IMG/VR virus record: IMGVR_UViG_3300042453_002700
Location: 1-27,237 of that record
Direction: 5' to 3' (one strand)
DNA length: 27,237 nt
DNA from: a virus
This document shows, one piece after another, positions 3,982-11,862 of the stretch (positions are counted from its first letter, which is position 1; every line of letters starts with the position of its first letter). A program made the translations under genes and the position numbers. The notes beneath the pieces are model-generated. The model saw nothing but the letters and a program-made list of their open reading frames with translations, was not told the origin of the DNA and made no database searches.

Positions 3982-4247
3982 AGTGCAGCCCCCGGGTCGG
4001 TGTCGTCGTCCTCGAGCAGCGGCCACCGCTGTGCGTTAGCCGCCTCGGCGTGCTCGTAGGCAACCGCCTGCTTCACCAGCCGAGTCTGCAGCTGCAGCAC
4101 CAGGTCCGCAGTCTCAAGCAGCAACGCTGCCCCGAAGTTCAACCGGGCCCGGCTGGCTCCGTCGCTGGCCTTGGTCACGGCGGCCTGCGCCATCGCATCG
4201 GCGTAGATCCGCAGGCTGGCAACGATCTCGTGCGGACGCATGCTCAT
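3978..4247 (-). CDS. Small helical protein of unknown function
   Basis: An 89-aa protein starting MSMRPHEIVASLRIYADAM. It is predicted to be almost all helix, with LLLETADLVLQLQTRLV as an amphipathic segment, and it ends in an acidic tail (LLEDDDTDPGAAL). ATG at 4247 overlaps the LexA-like gene stop as ATGA. No family recognised. Its place between a LexA-type DNA-binding protein and the clamp suggests an accessory replication or regulatory role, which is inference from position only. Confidence 0.6.
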   Translation of the reverse strand: MSMRPHEIVASLRIYADAMAQAAVTKASDGASRARLNFGAALLLETADLVLQLQTRLVKQAVAYEHAEAANAQRWPLLEDDDTDPGAAL

Positions 4248-4465
4248 GACACCACCTCGATGTTGCGGGGCTTGCCCTTCACACGGCGGATGAAGCCCTT
4301 CTTCTCCAGGGCGTCGAGATGCACCGTGGCGGCGTGCGGGCTCTTCGCACCGATGGCCGAGGCGATCTGCCTGCACGTCGGGCTGTACAGGGCCATGTTG
4401 GCCCTGATGAAGTCCAGCACTTCTTGCTGGCGAGCGGTCAGCCGCTCCTTTGCGGTCTGCGTCAT
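4244..4465 (-). CDS. LexA-like winged helix DNA-binding domain without protease domain
   Basis: The 73-aa product lines up along its length with the first 65-70 residues of LexA: LTARQQEVLDFIRANMA matches LTARQQEVFDLIRDHI of E. coli, followed by SPTCRQIASAIGAKSPHAAT (recognition helix region) and HLDALEKKGFIRRVKGKPR (wing). The Ala-Gly cleavage site and the Ser-Lys protease domain are absent because the frame ends at 4244. Such a protein could bind SOS-type operators but could not self-cleave after DNA damage. ATG at 4465 has a strong AGGAGG site and an ATGA overlap with the upstream gene. It may be a phage repressor or a competitor of host LexA. Confidence 0.8.
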   Translation of the reverse strand: MTQTAKERLTARQQEVLDFIRANMALYSPTCRQIASAIGAKSPHAATVHLDALEKKGFIRRVKGKPRNIEVVS

Positions 4466-8263: not shown

Positions 8264-8533
8264 TTATTCCCACTGGCTCTTGTTGCTGTGCGGCGGCTCG
8301 TTGAACTTGATCGCCGGCGGCTCGTACTTGTGCAGCCGATTCAGCACCTCGTTCAGTTGCGTCCGCAACTCCGTGATCGTCTTGAGGGCTCGGTCGTAGT
8401 TGCCCCCGAGCTCGTCCACGTACGCTGCAGCCCGGGGCCGGTTGCACCGCTCAAGGAACCCGGCGATGTCATAGGCGGTAATCGTCAGCGGCTCGTGGCT
8501 CTTGGCGATGTTGGGATCGAAGCGGCTTCTCAC
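8264..8533 (-). CDS. Small helical protein of unknown function
   Basis: An 89-aa protein. The middle (YDIAGFLERCNRPRAAAYVD, then RALKTITELRTQLNEVLNRL) is strongly helical and likely a short coiled coil. The GTG start at 8533 overlaps the RecT-like gene stop by four bases (GTGA), so the two are probably made together. No family recognised; a RecT partner, such as a nuclease accessory or single-strand DNA factor, is possible by position only. Confidence 0.6.
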   Translation of the reverse strand: MRSRFDPNIAKSHEPLTITAYDIAGFLERCNRPRAAAYVDELGGNYDRALKTITELRTQLNEVLNRLHKYEPPAIKFNEPPHSNKSQWE

Positions 8534-9381
8534 GATGCCACCTCGTGCTCGGCGGCCTCGTGGGCGAAGTCGGTGCCGGTGTCCTCGGAGCCGATCAGCA
8601 TCTCGGCCTTGTGGTGGATCAGGGCCACGAGCTCGTCCTTGCCGGCCTCGCTGAAGACGCCCTCGGCGTGTCGCTTGTCCACCAGCGACCGAATCGCGTC
8701 GAGCATCTCGAACGTCGTGGCTCGGCTGACCGCCAGGCGGGCCTTGCTCATGGGATCCTCGGGCACGACCGGGGCCACGGGCGTCACCTTGACAACGCTC
8801 GGCGTGGCCGGTTTGGCCGCTTCTTTGGCCGCTTCGTTGGCCGGATAGTCCTGGGCCTCCTCGGCCGTCACGAGGCCCTTGAGCACGTCAGGGAACGCAT
8901 CTCGCAGAGCGAAGCCTCGGGCACGCAGCTGCAGCATCCGGCGTGGGTACTGCGTCCACGGGCCGCTCTTGCCCCACAGGCCCGCCTTCTTGGCGTCCAC
9001 GACGCTGAACCGGGCCACGGTGGGCTTCTCATAGCCCCGCCGCTTGGCCTCGCAAGTGGCCACCATGGCCTCGCCGTCGCCCTCGATCTGCTCTCGGACG
9101 TACTCGCAGACCGGGCTCGCCATGGCCACGGCCAGGGCGGCGTCACCCCAGATCGCCGGCCGCCCGTTGATGCAGGCGATGTTTTGCAGGCTCTGCATCG
9201 GGCTCAGGCCGATCTCGCTGCCGTGCTGAATCGCCAGCAGGCAGGACTCGGGCTTGCCCCTGAAGTCCTTCGGGGCGAAGTCCGACTTGGCCACCATGGC
9301 GGCGAAGCGGAAGGCGTCGTCGAACGTGGCGAGGGCCAGCCCCCTCGTTGGCGTCGTGTTTGTGGAAATCTCCGTGGTCAT
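8530..9381 (-). CDS. RecT-like single-strand annealing protein
   Basis: A 283-aa protein with the RecT-family core: CLLAIQHGSEIGLSPMQSLQ (47-66), NIACINGRPAIWGDAALAVA (67-86), FSVVDAKKAGLWGKSGPWTQ, and RMLQLRARGFALRDAFPDVL. RecT proteins bind single-stranded DNA and anneal complementary strands during phage recombination and replication. The C-terminal third is alanine/valine-rich and variable, as usual. ATG at 9381 is taken as the start since MTTEISTNTTPT leads straight into the family domain and has AAAGGGA upstream. A GTG at 9468 with a stronger AAGGAG site would add 29 residues and cannot be ruled out. No paired exonuclease gene is obvious next to it. Confidence 0.8.
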   Translation of the reverse strand: MTTEISTNTTPTRGLALATFDDAFRFAAMVAKSDFAPKDFRGKPESCLLAIQHGSEIGLSPMQSLQNIACINGRPAIWGDAALAVAMASPVCEYVREQIEGDGEAMVATCEAKRRGYEKPTVARFSVVDAKKAGLWGKSGPWTQYPRRMLQLRARGFALRDAFPDVLKGLVTAEEAQDYPANEAAKEAAKPATPSVVKVTPVAPVVPEDPMSKARLAVSRATTFEMLDAIRSLVDKRHAEGVFSEAGKDELVALIHHKAEMLIGSEDTGTDFAHEAAEHEVAS

Positions 9382-9514
9382 CTGCCGTGTCCCTTTCTGC
9401 GTTGTGAAAAGCCCGCTCGGCGTCCTGCTCTGCGGGTGGTCAGTGCGTCCTTGCAACCCCGGTTCCACCGGGCTCCTTCCGACGACTAGCTCCGCTGGCC
9501 GCCGGTCCTTTCTT

Positions 9515-9790: not shown

Positions 9791-9812
9791 GTAGTGTACG
9801 GCTGTCCACTAC
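9791..9812. promoter_or_regulatory. 22-bp imperfect palindrome in the leader of the 9532-9768 gene
   Basis: GTAGTGTAC (9791-9799) is followed after GGCT by GTCCACTAC (9804-9812), its inverted repeat with one mismatch. In the leftward mRNA this hairpin lies immediately before the ribosome site AAGGAG, so it could act as an operator in DNA or a hairpin that controls translation in RNA. Confidence 0.45.
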
Positions 9813-9871: not shown

Positions 9872-9887
9872 GTGCCGCTACCGTCAC
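9872..9887. promoter_or_regulatory. Operator copy 1 of the shared 16-bp palindrome (no promoter boxes of its own)
   Basis: GTGCCG-CTAC-CGTCAC fits the pattern GTNNCG-N4-CGTYAC shared by four sites. It lies 29 bp downstream of operator copy 2, just past the predicted transcription start, a position that suits cooperative repression or DNA looping. Confidence 0.6.
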
Positions 9888-9897
9888 TTCCGTGGAT

Positions 9898-9925
9898 AGG
9901 GTAGCGTTAGCGTCACTTCTGTCAA
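9898..9925 (-). promoter_or_regulatory. Leftward promoter with operator copy 2 in its spacer
   Basis: Reading leftward: -35 TTGACA (9925-9920), a 16-bp spacer, and -10 TACCCT (9903-9898). Operator GTAGCG-TTAG-CGTCAC (9901-9916) fills the spacer and overlaps the -10 box. The -35 box also holds the TGA stop of the small gene 9922-10065. It would drive the 9532-9768 gene, RecT and the rest of the early operon. Confidence 0.65.
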
Positions 9926-10065
9926 CCAAGAAACCTGAACGGGATGGCGGCCAGCAGTTCAAGCAGGTCGTGCAGGGCTCGAGCAGCCGGTGAATCGGTG
10001 CCGAGCTCCTGGCCGATGCGGATCAGGACGAGCGACTGCATGGCGTGGTTCCAGTGGCGGTTCAT
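9922..10065 (-). CDS. Small helical protein (47 aa)
   Basis: ATG at 10065 with AAGGA about ten bases upstream, stop TGA at 9922. The peptide starts MNRHWNHAMQSLVLIRIGQE and continues through SPAARALHDLLELLAAIPFR, an amphipathic helical protein with natural codon use. The stop lies inside the -35 hexamer of the next promoter, and the start overlaps the stop of a shorter upstream frame as ATGA. No family recognised. Its place in the control region suggests a regulatory peptide, which is inference. Confidence 0.55.
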   Translation of the reverse strand: MNRHWNHAMQSLVLIRIGQELGTDSPAARALHDLLELLAAIPFRFLG

Positions 10066-10145
10066 TGCGTGGCCATCCTTGGCCCGAGAATCCTGTGAGC
10101 GATTGCCACCCGTTTCGCAGCTGTCGGCAGGCCGGGTGGCCCCAC
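10062..10145 (-). CDS. Possible very small ORF (27 aa), weakly supported
   Basis: GTG at 10145 to TGA at 10062; the peptide begins VGPPGLPTAAKRVAIAHRIL. The end overlaps the next start as ATGA, as is common here, but the AAGG in front of the GTG is too close for a normal ribosome site. A GGGTG-GGGC-CACCC hairpin overlaps its first codons. It may be a real leader peptide or only sequence between genes. Confidence 0.25.
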   Translation of the reverse strand: MGPPGLPTAAKRVAIAHRILGPRMATQ

Positions 10146-10155
10146 CCTTGGTTTT

Positions 10156-10359
10156 TCAGCGGTAGTACGTGACCCGGTTGCCGACGGCGTTGATAGTGCG
10201 GCGCGTTCCGTTAGCGAACACCTGAAGCAGCAACGTAGAACCCTTGACGCCCTCGATGATGCATTGGCGAATGATGCCGAGATCACGGGCCACGTTCACG
10301 CCGACGCCGAGCTCCTGAGTGACCGTGTACTTCCGGCTGTTAAGCGTGATCGTCTCCAT
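10156..10359 (-). CDS. Small beta-rich protein of unknown function
   Basis: A 67-aa protein: METITLNSRKYTVTQELGVG, then LGIIRQCIIEGVKGSTLLLQ and ANGTRRTINAVGNRVTYYR. Predicted mostly strands, soluble. ATG at 10359 with GGGAG eight bases upstream. It is the first full-size gene after the promoter at 10411-10438. No family recognised; its place in the operator-rich control region suggests an early regulator or anti-host protein. Confidence 0.6.
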   Translation of the reverse strand: METITLNSRKYTVTQELGVGVNVARDLGIIRQCIIEGVKGSTLLLQVFANGTRRTINAVGNRVTYYR

Positions 10360-10374
10360 GTTGCTGACTCCCGG

Positions 10375-10404
10375 TTAGCGGCTGCGAGTCTCATTCGCTC
10401 GCAT
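10375..10404 (-). CDS. Nine-codon leaderless ORF candidate
   Basis: ATG at 10404 lies six bases after the predicted -10 box (10416-10411), that is at the expected transcription start; the frame MRANETRSR ends with TAA at 10375, 15 bases before the next ATG at 10359. It could be a leader peptide translated from the very 5' end of the transcript, or chance. Confidence 0.3.
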   Translation of the reverse strand: MRANETRSR

Positions 10405-10410
10405 GCCCCT

Positions 10411-10438
10411 AGTGTAGCGTTATCGTTACTTGGGGCAA
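10411..10438 (-). promoter_or_regulatory. Leftward promoter with operator copy 3 in its spacer
   Basis: -35 TTGCCC (10438-10433), 16-bp spacer, -10 TACACT (10416-10411). Operator GTAGCG-TTAT-CGTTAC (10414-10429) fills the spacer and overlaps the -10 box exactly as in the other two promoters. It would drive the 10156-10359 gene and those after it. Confidence 0.6.
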
Positions 10439-10481
10439 GGGGGCTTCAAAAGATTTTTTTAGGTGCGGTTTTCCCCGTGGA

Positions 10482-10745
10482 TTACTGGGGTTTCCGCTTA
10501 CGCTTGGGCTTCGGATCAGCCGGCCGCTCGTCCTTCCGCAGGTTCGAGCGGGTGGTCAGGCTGGCCTTGAGGGTCAGCACGTCGGCCTTAAACACCAGCC
10601 ACGCCCGCTCGCCGGCCTTCCAGCCACGCAGCCTGGTGTCCCCTTCGCCCAGCAGGCGACGCAGGTAGCCCTCGGTGCAGCCCGCCAGCTTCACCGCTTC
10701 GGCAATCGTGATCCACTCTTTGTCCGGGCTCGCCAATGCAACCAT
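10482..10745 (-). CDS. Small helix-turn-helix protein, excisionase-like
   Basis: An 87-aa protein. EWITIAEAVKLAGCTEGYLR (about 10-29) followed by RLLGEGDTRLRGWKAGERAW has the MerR/excisionase winged-helix pattern ('I-x-E-A-x-x-L-x-G-x-S-x-x-Y-L-x-x-L' then a wing), and the tail is very basic (ADPKPKRKRKPQ). It is the first gene leftward of the integrase and is divergent from it, the usual place of xis or a cro-like gene. The ATG at 10745 is chosen because the longer form from 10763 would start inside the promoter. The predicted transcript begins at this ATG, so it may be leaderless; GGGAG lies too close to serve well. Role as Xis versus transcription regulator cannot be separated by sequence. 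Confidence 0.65.
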   Translation of the reverse strand: MVALASPDKEWITIAEAVKLAGCTEGYLRRLLGEGDTRLRGWKAGERAWLVFKADVLTLKASLTTRSNLRKDERPADPKPKRKRKPQ

Positions 10746-10751
10746 GCTCCC

Positions 10752-10779
10752 ATAGTAACGCAAGCGTCACCTGCGTCAA
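10752..10779 (-). promoter_or_regulatory. Leftward promoter with operator copy 4 in its spacer
   Basis: -35 TTGACG (10779-10774), 16-bp spacer, -10 TACTAT (10757-10752), then six bases and the ATG at 10745. Operator GTAACG-CAAG-CGTCAC (10755-10770) fills the spacer and overlaps the -10 box. It would be the first early promoter next to the integrase. Confidence 0.65.
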
Positions 10780-10811
10780 ACCGACTCGCCTTGCCGCTCT
10801 CACTCGAATCT

Positions 10812-10903
10812 CTGTACAGTATCGCAGCCGGCCGAAACCGGCGATCTTTCTAGCGGATGGGGTGTAGTTCGTGATTGTGTACACCTGTACAGATGGGTAT
10901 GCT
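10812..10903 (+). promoter_or_regulatory. Integrase control region with two CTGTACAG palindromes
   Basis: CTGTACAG occurs at 10812-10819 and 10885-10892, with a further TGTACA at 10878-10883. Two possible rightward promoters match them: TTGCCG (10791) -N18- TACAGT (10815-10820), whose -10 overlaps the first site, and TTGTGT (10875-10880) -N17- TATGCT (10898-10903), whose spacer holds the second. They differ from the leftward 16-bp operators, so the integrase is likely under a separate regulator. Confidence 0.45.
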
Positions 10904-10929
10904 TGGGGCAAAACAAAAGGTGCTTAGCC

Positions 10930-11862
10930 ATGACACTCAGAGAGCTCTTTTTAGATCGGATTGCCCCCCTGAAAAACCTGAGCGACCGGAGCATCACGAT
11001 GTACTGCTCCACGCTGGACAGGTTCGCAGATTACCTTGGCCACGAGCCTACCGTGGACGACCTCGACGACCTCGTGGCGTCGAAGTTCCTCCGGTGGCGG
11101 GCCGCCACGGTCCACGACAAAAAGCGGGGCCTGATCTCGCCGGCCAGCCTGGCGAAAGACTCTGCCCACCTCCGCAGCCTGTGGACGTGGCTCGCCAAGA
11201 AGCGGTGGAAGAAGTCCAACGGCGATCTGCTGGAGTTTCCCGACTACGCCCGGCCGAGGGTGCCGAAGCCCGTTCCGAAGGCGTACAAGGCCGATGAGCT
11301 CAGCCGGCTGATTCAGGCCGCCCGGCACCGCAAGGGGCTTGTGGCGGGCAAGCCGGCCGCCTGGTACTGGATCACGAAACTGCTGGCCATGTTCCAGACC
11401 GGGGAGCGGATCGGCGCGGTGCTCGAGCTCCGGTGGGCCCAGGTCGATCTGGAGCAGCACACCCTGACGTTCCTGGCGGCCAGCCGCAAAGGCCACAGAG
11501 AGACGATTACGCGGCCGATTACCCCGGCCCTGTCTCAGATGCTGGCGATGCACGCCGGGGCTCCCAGCGAGCGTGTGTGGCCCTGGCGGGACGACCGGGA
11601 GATGCTGTCCTGCTACGGCTCGCTCAAGGTGCTGTGCCGCACGGCGGGCGTGCCGTACAAGCCGTTTCACGCCATCCGCAAAAGCACGGCGTCGTACCTG
11701 AAGCGGGCCGGAGTCTCGGCCAAGAAGCAGCTTGGGCACAGCAGCGAGGAGATGGCGGAAAACCACTACTACGACGAGGAGATCACGGGCCGGGAGTCCA
11801 ACCTCGACCACCTGCCAGACATCACGCAGCCGCCCCCCGGCGGGCCCGGGAAGCCACGGTAG
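10930..11862 (+). CDS. int: Tyrosine recombinase integrase
   Basis: A 310-aa protein. The N-terminal SAM-like core-binding domain (about 1-110: FLDRIAPLKNLSDRSITMYC, LRSLWTWLAKKRWKK) is followed by a catalytic domain with the full set of residues: R160 in FQTGERIGAVLELRW, K187 in SRKGHRE, H247-x-x-R250 in HAIRKSTASYL, H270 in QLGHSS and the nucleophile tyrosine in ENHYYDEE (Y280 or Y281). It would integrate and excise the phage genome at att sites. ATG at 10930 is chosen for its AAAAGG site; a TTG at 10903 would add nine codons. It is the only convincing plus-strand gene, divergent from the excisionase-like gene and convergent with the late operon. Confidence 0.92.
   Translation: MTLRELFLDRIAPLKNLSDRSITMYCSTLDRFADYLGHEPTVDDLDDLVASKFLRWRAATVHDKKRGLISPASLAKDSAHLRSLWTWLAKKRWKKSNGDLLEFPDYARPRVPKPVPKAYKADELSRLIQAARHRKGLVAGKPAAWYWITKLLAMFQTGERIGAVLELRWAQVDLEQHTLTFLAASRKGHRETITRPITPALSQMLAMHAGAPSERVWPWRDDREMLSCYGSLKVLCRTAGVPYKPFHAIRKSTASYLKRAGVSAKKQLGHSSEEMAENHYYDEEITGRESNLDHLPDITQPPPGGPGKPR

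Follow-up and report, generated by a model that had tools for sequence, protein, structure and literature searches.

The small, predicted winged-helix protein gpR is most probably an immunity-type, autoregulated repressor of the early operon of its phage, acting through palindromic operators that overlap three tandem promoters. We put the probability of this reading at about 0.72, and binding, repression, and immunity are predicted here from sequence comparison. The DNA analyzed (hereafter, the window) comprises all 27,237 bases of one IMG/VR virus record, and the features discussed below are listed in Table 1.

Table 1. Positions of promoters, operators, and genes in the window
Feature	Position	Strand	Details
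Tyrosine integrase	10930..11862	+	Divergent from gpR
P4-type dyad	10877..10892	+	GTGTAC-ACCT-GTACAG; ahead of integrase
P1	10752..10779	-	-35 TTGACG, 16-bp spacer, -10 TACTAT
O1	10755..10770	-	GTGACG-CTTG-CGTTAC; within P1, the promoter of gpR itself
gpR	10482..10745	-	87-aa small DNA-binding protein, predicted winged helix, proposed repressor; ATG at 10745
A-tract	10448..10461	-	UP-element-like, kept in relatives; just upstream of the P2 -35
P2	10411..10438	-	-35 TTGCCC, 16-bp spacer, -10 TACACT
O2	10414..10429	-	GTAACG-ATAA-CGCTAC; within P2
P2 transcript start	10375..10404	-	5' hairpin GCGAG...CTCGC and 9-codon leaderless mini-ORF (MRANETRSR)
67-aa ORF	10156..10359	-	Variable cargo slot after P2
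47-aa ORF	9922..10065	-	Conserved, between P2 and P3
P3	9898..9925	-	-35 TTGACA, 16-bp spacer, -10 TACCCT
O3	9901..9916	-	GTGACG-CTAA-CGCTAC; within P3
O3b	9872..9887	-	GTGACG-GTAG-CGGCAC; 29 bp downstream from O3; overlaps no promoter box
P4	9793..9820	-	Different dyad, GTGGAC-AGCC-GTACAC (9794-9809), LexA-box-like
RecT-family protein	8530..9390	-	In operon downstream of P3 and P4
LexA DNA-binding domain	4244..4462	-	Stand-alone, no peptidase, 73 aa; PF01726, 5.9e-21

Four operators and three tandem promoters

The first-pass annotation, made from the letters of the window, had reported four palindromes at 9872, 9901, 10414, and 10755, and all of them were present exactly as written. Their common pattern, GTNNCG-N4-CGTYAC, had five strand matches in the window, whereas 100 shuffles averaged 0.25 and never exceeded 2, and no copies of this kind were found inside genes elsewhere in the window. 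When one mismatch to GTRRCG-N4-CGTYAC was allowed, only the same four places were recovered (eight matches on both strands of the window versus 1.58 expected). Three of the four sites do lie, as had been claimed, inside leftward promoters in which 16 bp separate the -35 and -10 boxes, and the final three bases of O1, O2, and O3 double as the initial three of their -10 boxes. No promoter accompanies the site at 9872. Searches of the window for tRNA genes and Rfam RNAs found none.

The gpR ATG lies 12 nt past the first -10 base of P1 in the window, and this distance was 12 or 13 nt in 50 of 51 distinct homologues, a gap from which a leaderless gpR mRNA is predicted. An alternative TTG start at 10763 falls within the operator.

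Conservation of promoter-embedded palindromes in relatives

Homologues of gpR are encoded by 65 IMG/VR contigs. The scan of relatives required the promoter geometry and a 4-of-5 palindrome but no set sequence. Across the gpR contigs and related loci, it returned 143 promoter-embedded palindromes, all on the gpR strand, compared with 2.0 expected from shuffles. This total should not be read as a number of independent events, since loci overlap and near-identical contigs each contribute their own sites. The shared geometry, which had been thought hard to explain by chance from the window, therefore recurs well beyond it. In relatives, the P1 palindromes are found 25-26 bp upstream of the gpR ATG, the P2 palindromes about 300-320 bp downstream of it, and the P3 palindromes mostly 0.5-2 kb past it, ahead of the RecT operon. 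Most gpR homologues have an O1-like site in their own promoter; the P1 palindrome is poor or absent in L094, L096, L099, and L111. An earlier IMG/VR pattern with a 17-bp spacer gave matches at about the estimated chance level, among which L028 and L044 were the only true relatives.

In 23 of 24 distinct loci, O3 is followed 29-30 bp downstream by another operator of its class. Because of this recurrence, the promoter-less copy at 9872, which is this additional operator in the window, is not a stray. In class C phages (see below), this extra site is CTAACG-N4-CGTTAG and, free of promoter constraint, is nearly always a perfect palindrome.

Three co-directional promoters within 0.9 kb might be duplicates, and the pattern would then be a product of chance or of shared ancestry inside one phage. 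This explanation is scarcely credible given the chance expectations of just 0.25 (window) and 2.0 (relatives), the joint variation of both operator arms at all sites across phages, and the conservation of O3b even though it stands outside a promoter.

Operator classes and gpR residue 30

The operators of gpR phages were assigned to classes, each pairing a half-site with a gpR helix: class A, that of the window (GTAACG, CTEGYLRRLL); class B (TTACCG, CTDGLIRLRL); class C (CTAACG, CTEGWVRLLL); class D (CTTCCG, CSDSWVRHLI), which was read by eye and has no clean palindrome; and class E (GTTGCG, CSEQFIRREL). For distinct proteins whose P2 operator was readable, Arg30 of gpR was paired with an outer G in 20 of 20 cases, and in all 11 of the cases with Leu30 or Gln30 the outer base was C or T (Fisher 1.2e-8, a p-value that ignores ancestry). 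The gpR of L078 is otherwise class-A-like and has Gln30 with the operator CTAACG, an apparent independent switch of residue and outer base, and the distant gpR of L020 has Arg30 with an outer G. These two phages provide more than one independent contrast for residue 30. The result is a predicted simple code between residue 30 and the outer base, which is directly testable.

Operator DNA alone also led back to gpR. Used as IMG/VR queries, the 16-bp P2 operator of class A matched 40 contigs and that of class C matched 22; gpR was located directly upstream of 24 of 28 promoter-like class A matches and 15 of 18 promoter-like class C matches. The exceptions in these two classes were two cut contig ends and matches of weak geometry without gpR, the clear cases of which lay within unrelated coding sequence. 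A control 16-mer had gpR nearby in 0 of 20 matches, and the class B 16-mer matched mostly by chance (4 of 76 near gpR).

Other arrangements were observed at some loci. L024 (3353-4310) has CTARCG operators with a protein that is nearer to the L010-type HTH protein than to gpR, and it is an outlier to the co-variation. In L010 (4600-5330) and L023 (1-760), another HTH protein and GTGCAG-N4-CTGCAC-type sites replace gpR and its operators, and the integrase or backbone of this set is near-identical despite the replacement.

Operators track gpR in discordant phages

The first-pass annotation had expected a phage regulon with one repressor that governs entry into the early operon and had named the small DNA-binding proteins of the 10745, 4465, and 2754 genes as candidates. 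The comparative evidence supports such a regulon with a single cognate repressor, repression itself being inferred; among the candidates, gpR (10745) tracks the operators, and the products of the 4465 and 2754 genes were excluded.

Phages in which gpR and the rest of the genome disagree were the most informative. In L006, the three promoter positions are occupied by NTACCG-N4-CGGTAN, and its gpR is only 45% identical to that of the window; gpR has thus changed along with the operators. In L006, L013, and L015, three proteins remain close to those of the window (gp9532, 89-94% identity; LexA domain, 91-98%; 47-aa protein, 87-92%), whereas gpR is just 38-45% identical and the operators differ at both P2 and P3. 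The opposite case is found in L028 and L072, where the integrase is 40-41% and gpR 71-76% identical and the operators are as in the window. L098-L107 combine an integrase of 73-76% and a gpR of 51-54% identity with class C operators. All sites of a phage switch class together, even where the flanking genes are about 90% alike. In partial Mantel tests, P3 operators correlated with gpR given the integrase (r 0.42, P 0.0005) and also with the integrase given gpR (r 0.51), so that gpR is not singled out by this test; as many of these loci have common ancestry, the argument is based on the discordant cases. As judged from these comparisons, operator class follows gpR and not the remaining genome.

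LexA domain and a separate dyad at P4

The window also encodes a stand-alone LexA DNA-binding domain, and N4-spaced dyads are possible for LexA boxes, so that the operators might be SOS boxes of the host, recognized by its LexA or by this phage domain. The domain is 98% identical in L006, where the operators are TTACCG-type; near-identical backbones carry differing operator classes; and P4 already has a separate, class-independent LexA-box-like dyad. With these observations, the SOS-box reading is very unlikely. The 2754 gene product, gp2470, is likewise 94% identical in L006 despite the other operators there. Because both proteins are nearly unchanged next to different operators, neither is the binder of O1-O3. 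The LexA-domain protein is 83-99% identical in 23 IMG/VR contigs (L005-L027), of which only L011 was positive in a scan for window-type operators.

The P4 dyad, approximately TGRAC-N4-GTACA, was found in 43 loci that cover every gpR class and in none on the control strand; it was rejected as a gpR site since it occurs with all classes. Some Planctomycetota lexA promoters contain GTGWAC-N4-GTWCAC-like sites (exact in L133, near in L132, L135, and L114), survey matches that are suggestive only. Taken with the P4 dyad, these sites suggest that host LexA or the phage LexA domain binds at P4-type sites. The phage domain could bind there or could disturb the SOS response of the host. A planctomycete host is probable, the only two indications being this resemblance to lexA sites and a single integrase, of 32% identity, from a Planctomycetota MAG.

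Predicted fold of gpR and comparison with Cox/Apl-type regulators

The HTH_17 profile matched gpR with 19.2 bits (E 0.0015), under its curated cut-off of 27, and PHROG excisionases gave weak matches. The AlphaFold (AF2) model, with a modest pLDDT of 69, has the element order E-H-H-E-E-H, which is the winged-helix order. Pukovnik Xis and BldC bind direct repeats as filaments. These two proteins, mycobacteriophage Pukovnik Xis (4j2n; Z 6.1) and BldC (6ama/6amk; Z 6.8), are the closest solved folds to the model, with 17-20% identity and other operators; MerR proteins were also among the nearest folds, and Pukovnik Xis matched gpR by profile with E 0.015. No cleavable domain and no clear dimerization domain were seen in gpR. 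A MerR family activator was rejected, because it needs a dyad in a 19-20 bp spacer and the spacers here are 16, sometimes 17, bp.

The main rival to an immunity repressor is a Cox/Apl-type early lytic regulator that also serves as recombination directionality factor, with another repressor holding lysogeny. Several features agree with it. The modeled fold of gpR is Xis-like, gpR is the first gene of the early operon, and gpR and the integrase were adjacent and divergent in 78 of 78 loci having both. In phage 186, Apl combines both roles, and gpR resembles Apl and P2 Cox as a small, excisionase-like HTH protein, the product of an early gene, that would regulate phage promoters (PMC7498355). Unlike gpR, whose sites are inverted repeats, Apl binds direct repeats one turn apart as well as att (PMC7498355). 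No gpR half-site was found between gpR and int (10771-10929), a gap that is too short for a second regulator gene; attP was not located. Diversification of the whole set is typical of immunity sets, though a Cro-like partner would share it. On balance, a Cox/Apl-type role for gpR is unlikely, and an immunity-type repressor is favored, since joint divergence of repressor and operators against a common backbone is the pattern of an immunity system.

Proposed mechanism and relation to known systems

In the mechanism that we propose, a gpR dimer would bind the 6-4-6 palindromes between the -35 and -10 boxes of the three tandem leftward promoters, as well as the additional site some 30 bp downstream from O3. 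Once bound, gpR would exclude RNA polymerase from P1, giving negative autoregulation of a leaderless mRNA, and would shut P2, the promoter of the variable early cargo, and P3, the promoter of the RecT/replication operon. Steric repression fits because the operators extend over the spacer and into the -10 box, and negative autoregulation fits because one operator sits at the promoter of gpR itself. We infer that gpR maintains lysogeny. The joint change of gpR and all its sites in dozens of uncultured phages is as would be expected if they set mutual immunity. No match to gpR was found in 50,697 phage records, and none in bacterial genomes and 392 Planctomycetota genomes, the latter search having no positive control and showing little; as the searched genomes contained no gpR prophage, expression in lysogens is not visible.

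In lambdoid immunity regions (CI/Cro), the repressor and its operators are swapped as a set on a conserved backbone, and the operators lie inside early promoters. The gpR system shares both properties. It differs in having neither a divergent CI/Cro pair nor a cleavable repressor domain, and instead has a co-directional, autoregulated, predicted leaderless gene with another predicted DNA-binding fold. In Cluster A mycobacteriophages (L5, Bxb1), a repressor acts with multiple oriented sites whose consensus diverges jointly with it (PMC6550527); several oriented sites, co-divergence of repressor and site, and an operator in the early promoter are common to both systems. A Cluster A genome has 20-30 stoperators of 13 bp each, most of them located outside promoters (PMC6550527), whereas the gpR system has four dyads in 0.9 kb, three of them inside promoters, and a different protein. 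The many extra-promoter sites of a Cluster A stoperator system were not found here, and membership was rejected. A literature search found no paper describing the gpR-operator system; the kind of system is known, and the protein family, the dyad operator, and the leaderless tandem-promoter layout appear to be new.

A broader scenario, doubtful as a whole, is that this uncultured, probably planctomycete, phage clade establishes lysogeny without a CI-type repressor. Immunity would depend on an uncleavable Xis-like gpR as the only repressor, and changes at a few residues of the recognition helix would re-code its specificity. The damage response would be separate, running through LexA boxes located at P4 and in the promoter of the integrase, which the phage LexA domain would modulate. 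The gpR phages offer a natural data set of matched repressor-operator sets, in which one very small protein has at least five specificity classes, and describe early gene control in a phage clade without an isolated member in the phage collection searched. They suggest that immunity groups may arise when a single gene and its four short sites are exchanged within a common backbone.

The P2 leader, the cargo slot, and a repeated ORF

The P2 leaders of relatives have a recurrent 5' hairpin, in which the stem letters vary with pairing preserved (GCGAG/CTCGC, CGTCAGG/CCTGACG, and GCGGC/GCCGC), and a short leaderless mini-ORF is often present. The cargo slot between P2 and P3 is variable, at 0.2-1.7 kb (for example, in L008, L079, L020, and L080), and in L008 and L079 it holds a C5 DNA methyltransferase-like gene; this slot is possibly a place for anti-restriction or anti-defense genes. 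Elsewhere in the window, one 81-aa ORF (MRTLEDEEDPFIPTP...) is present twice on the minus strand, at 1634-1879 and 1917-2162, with identical translations.
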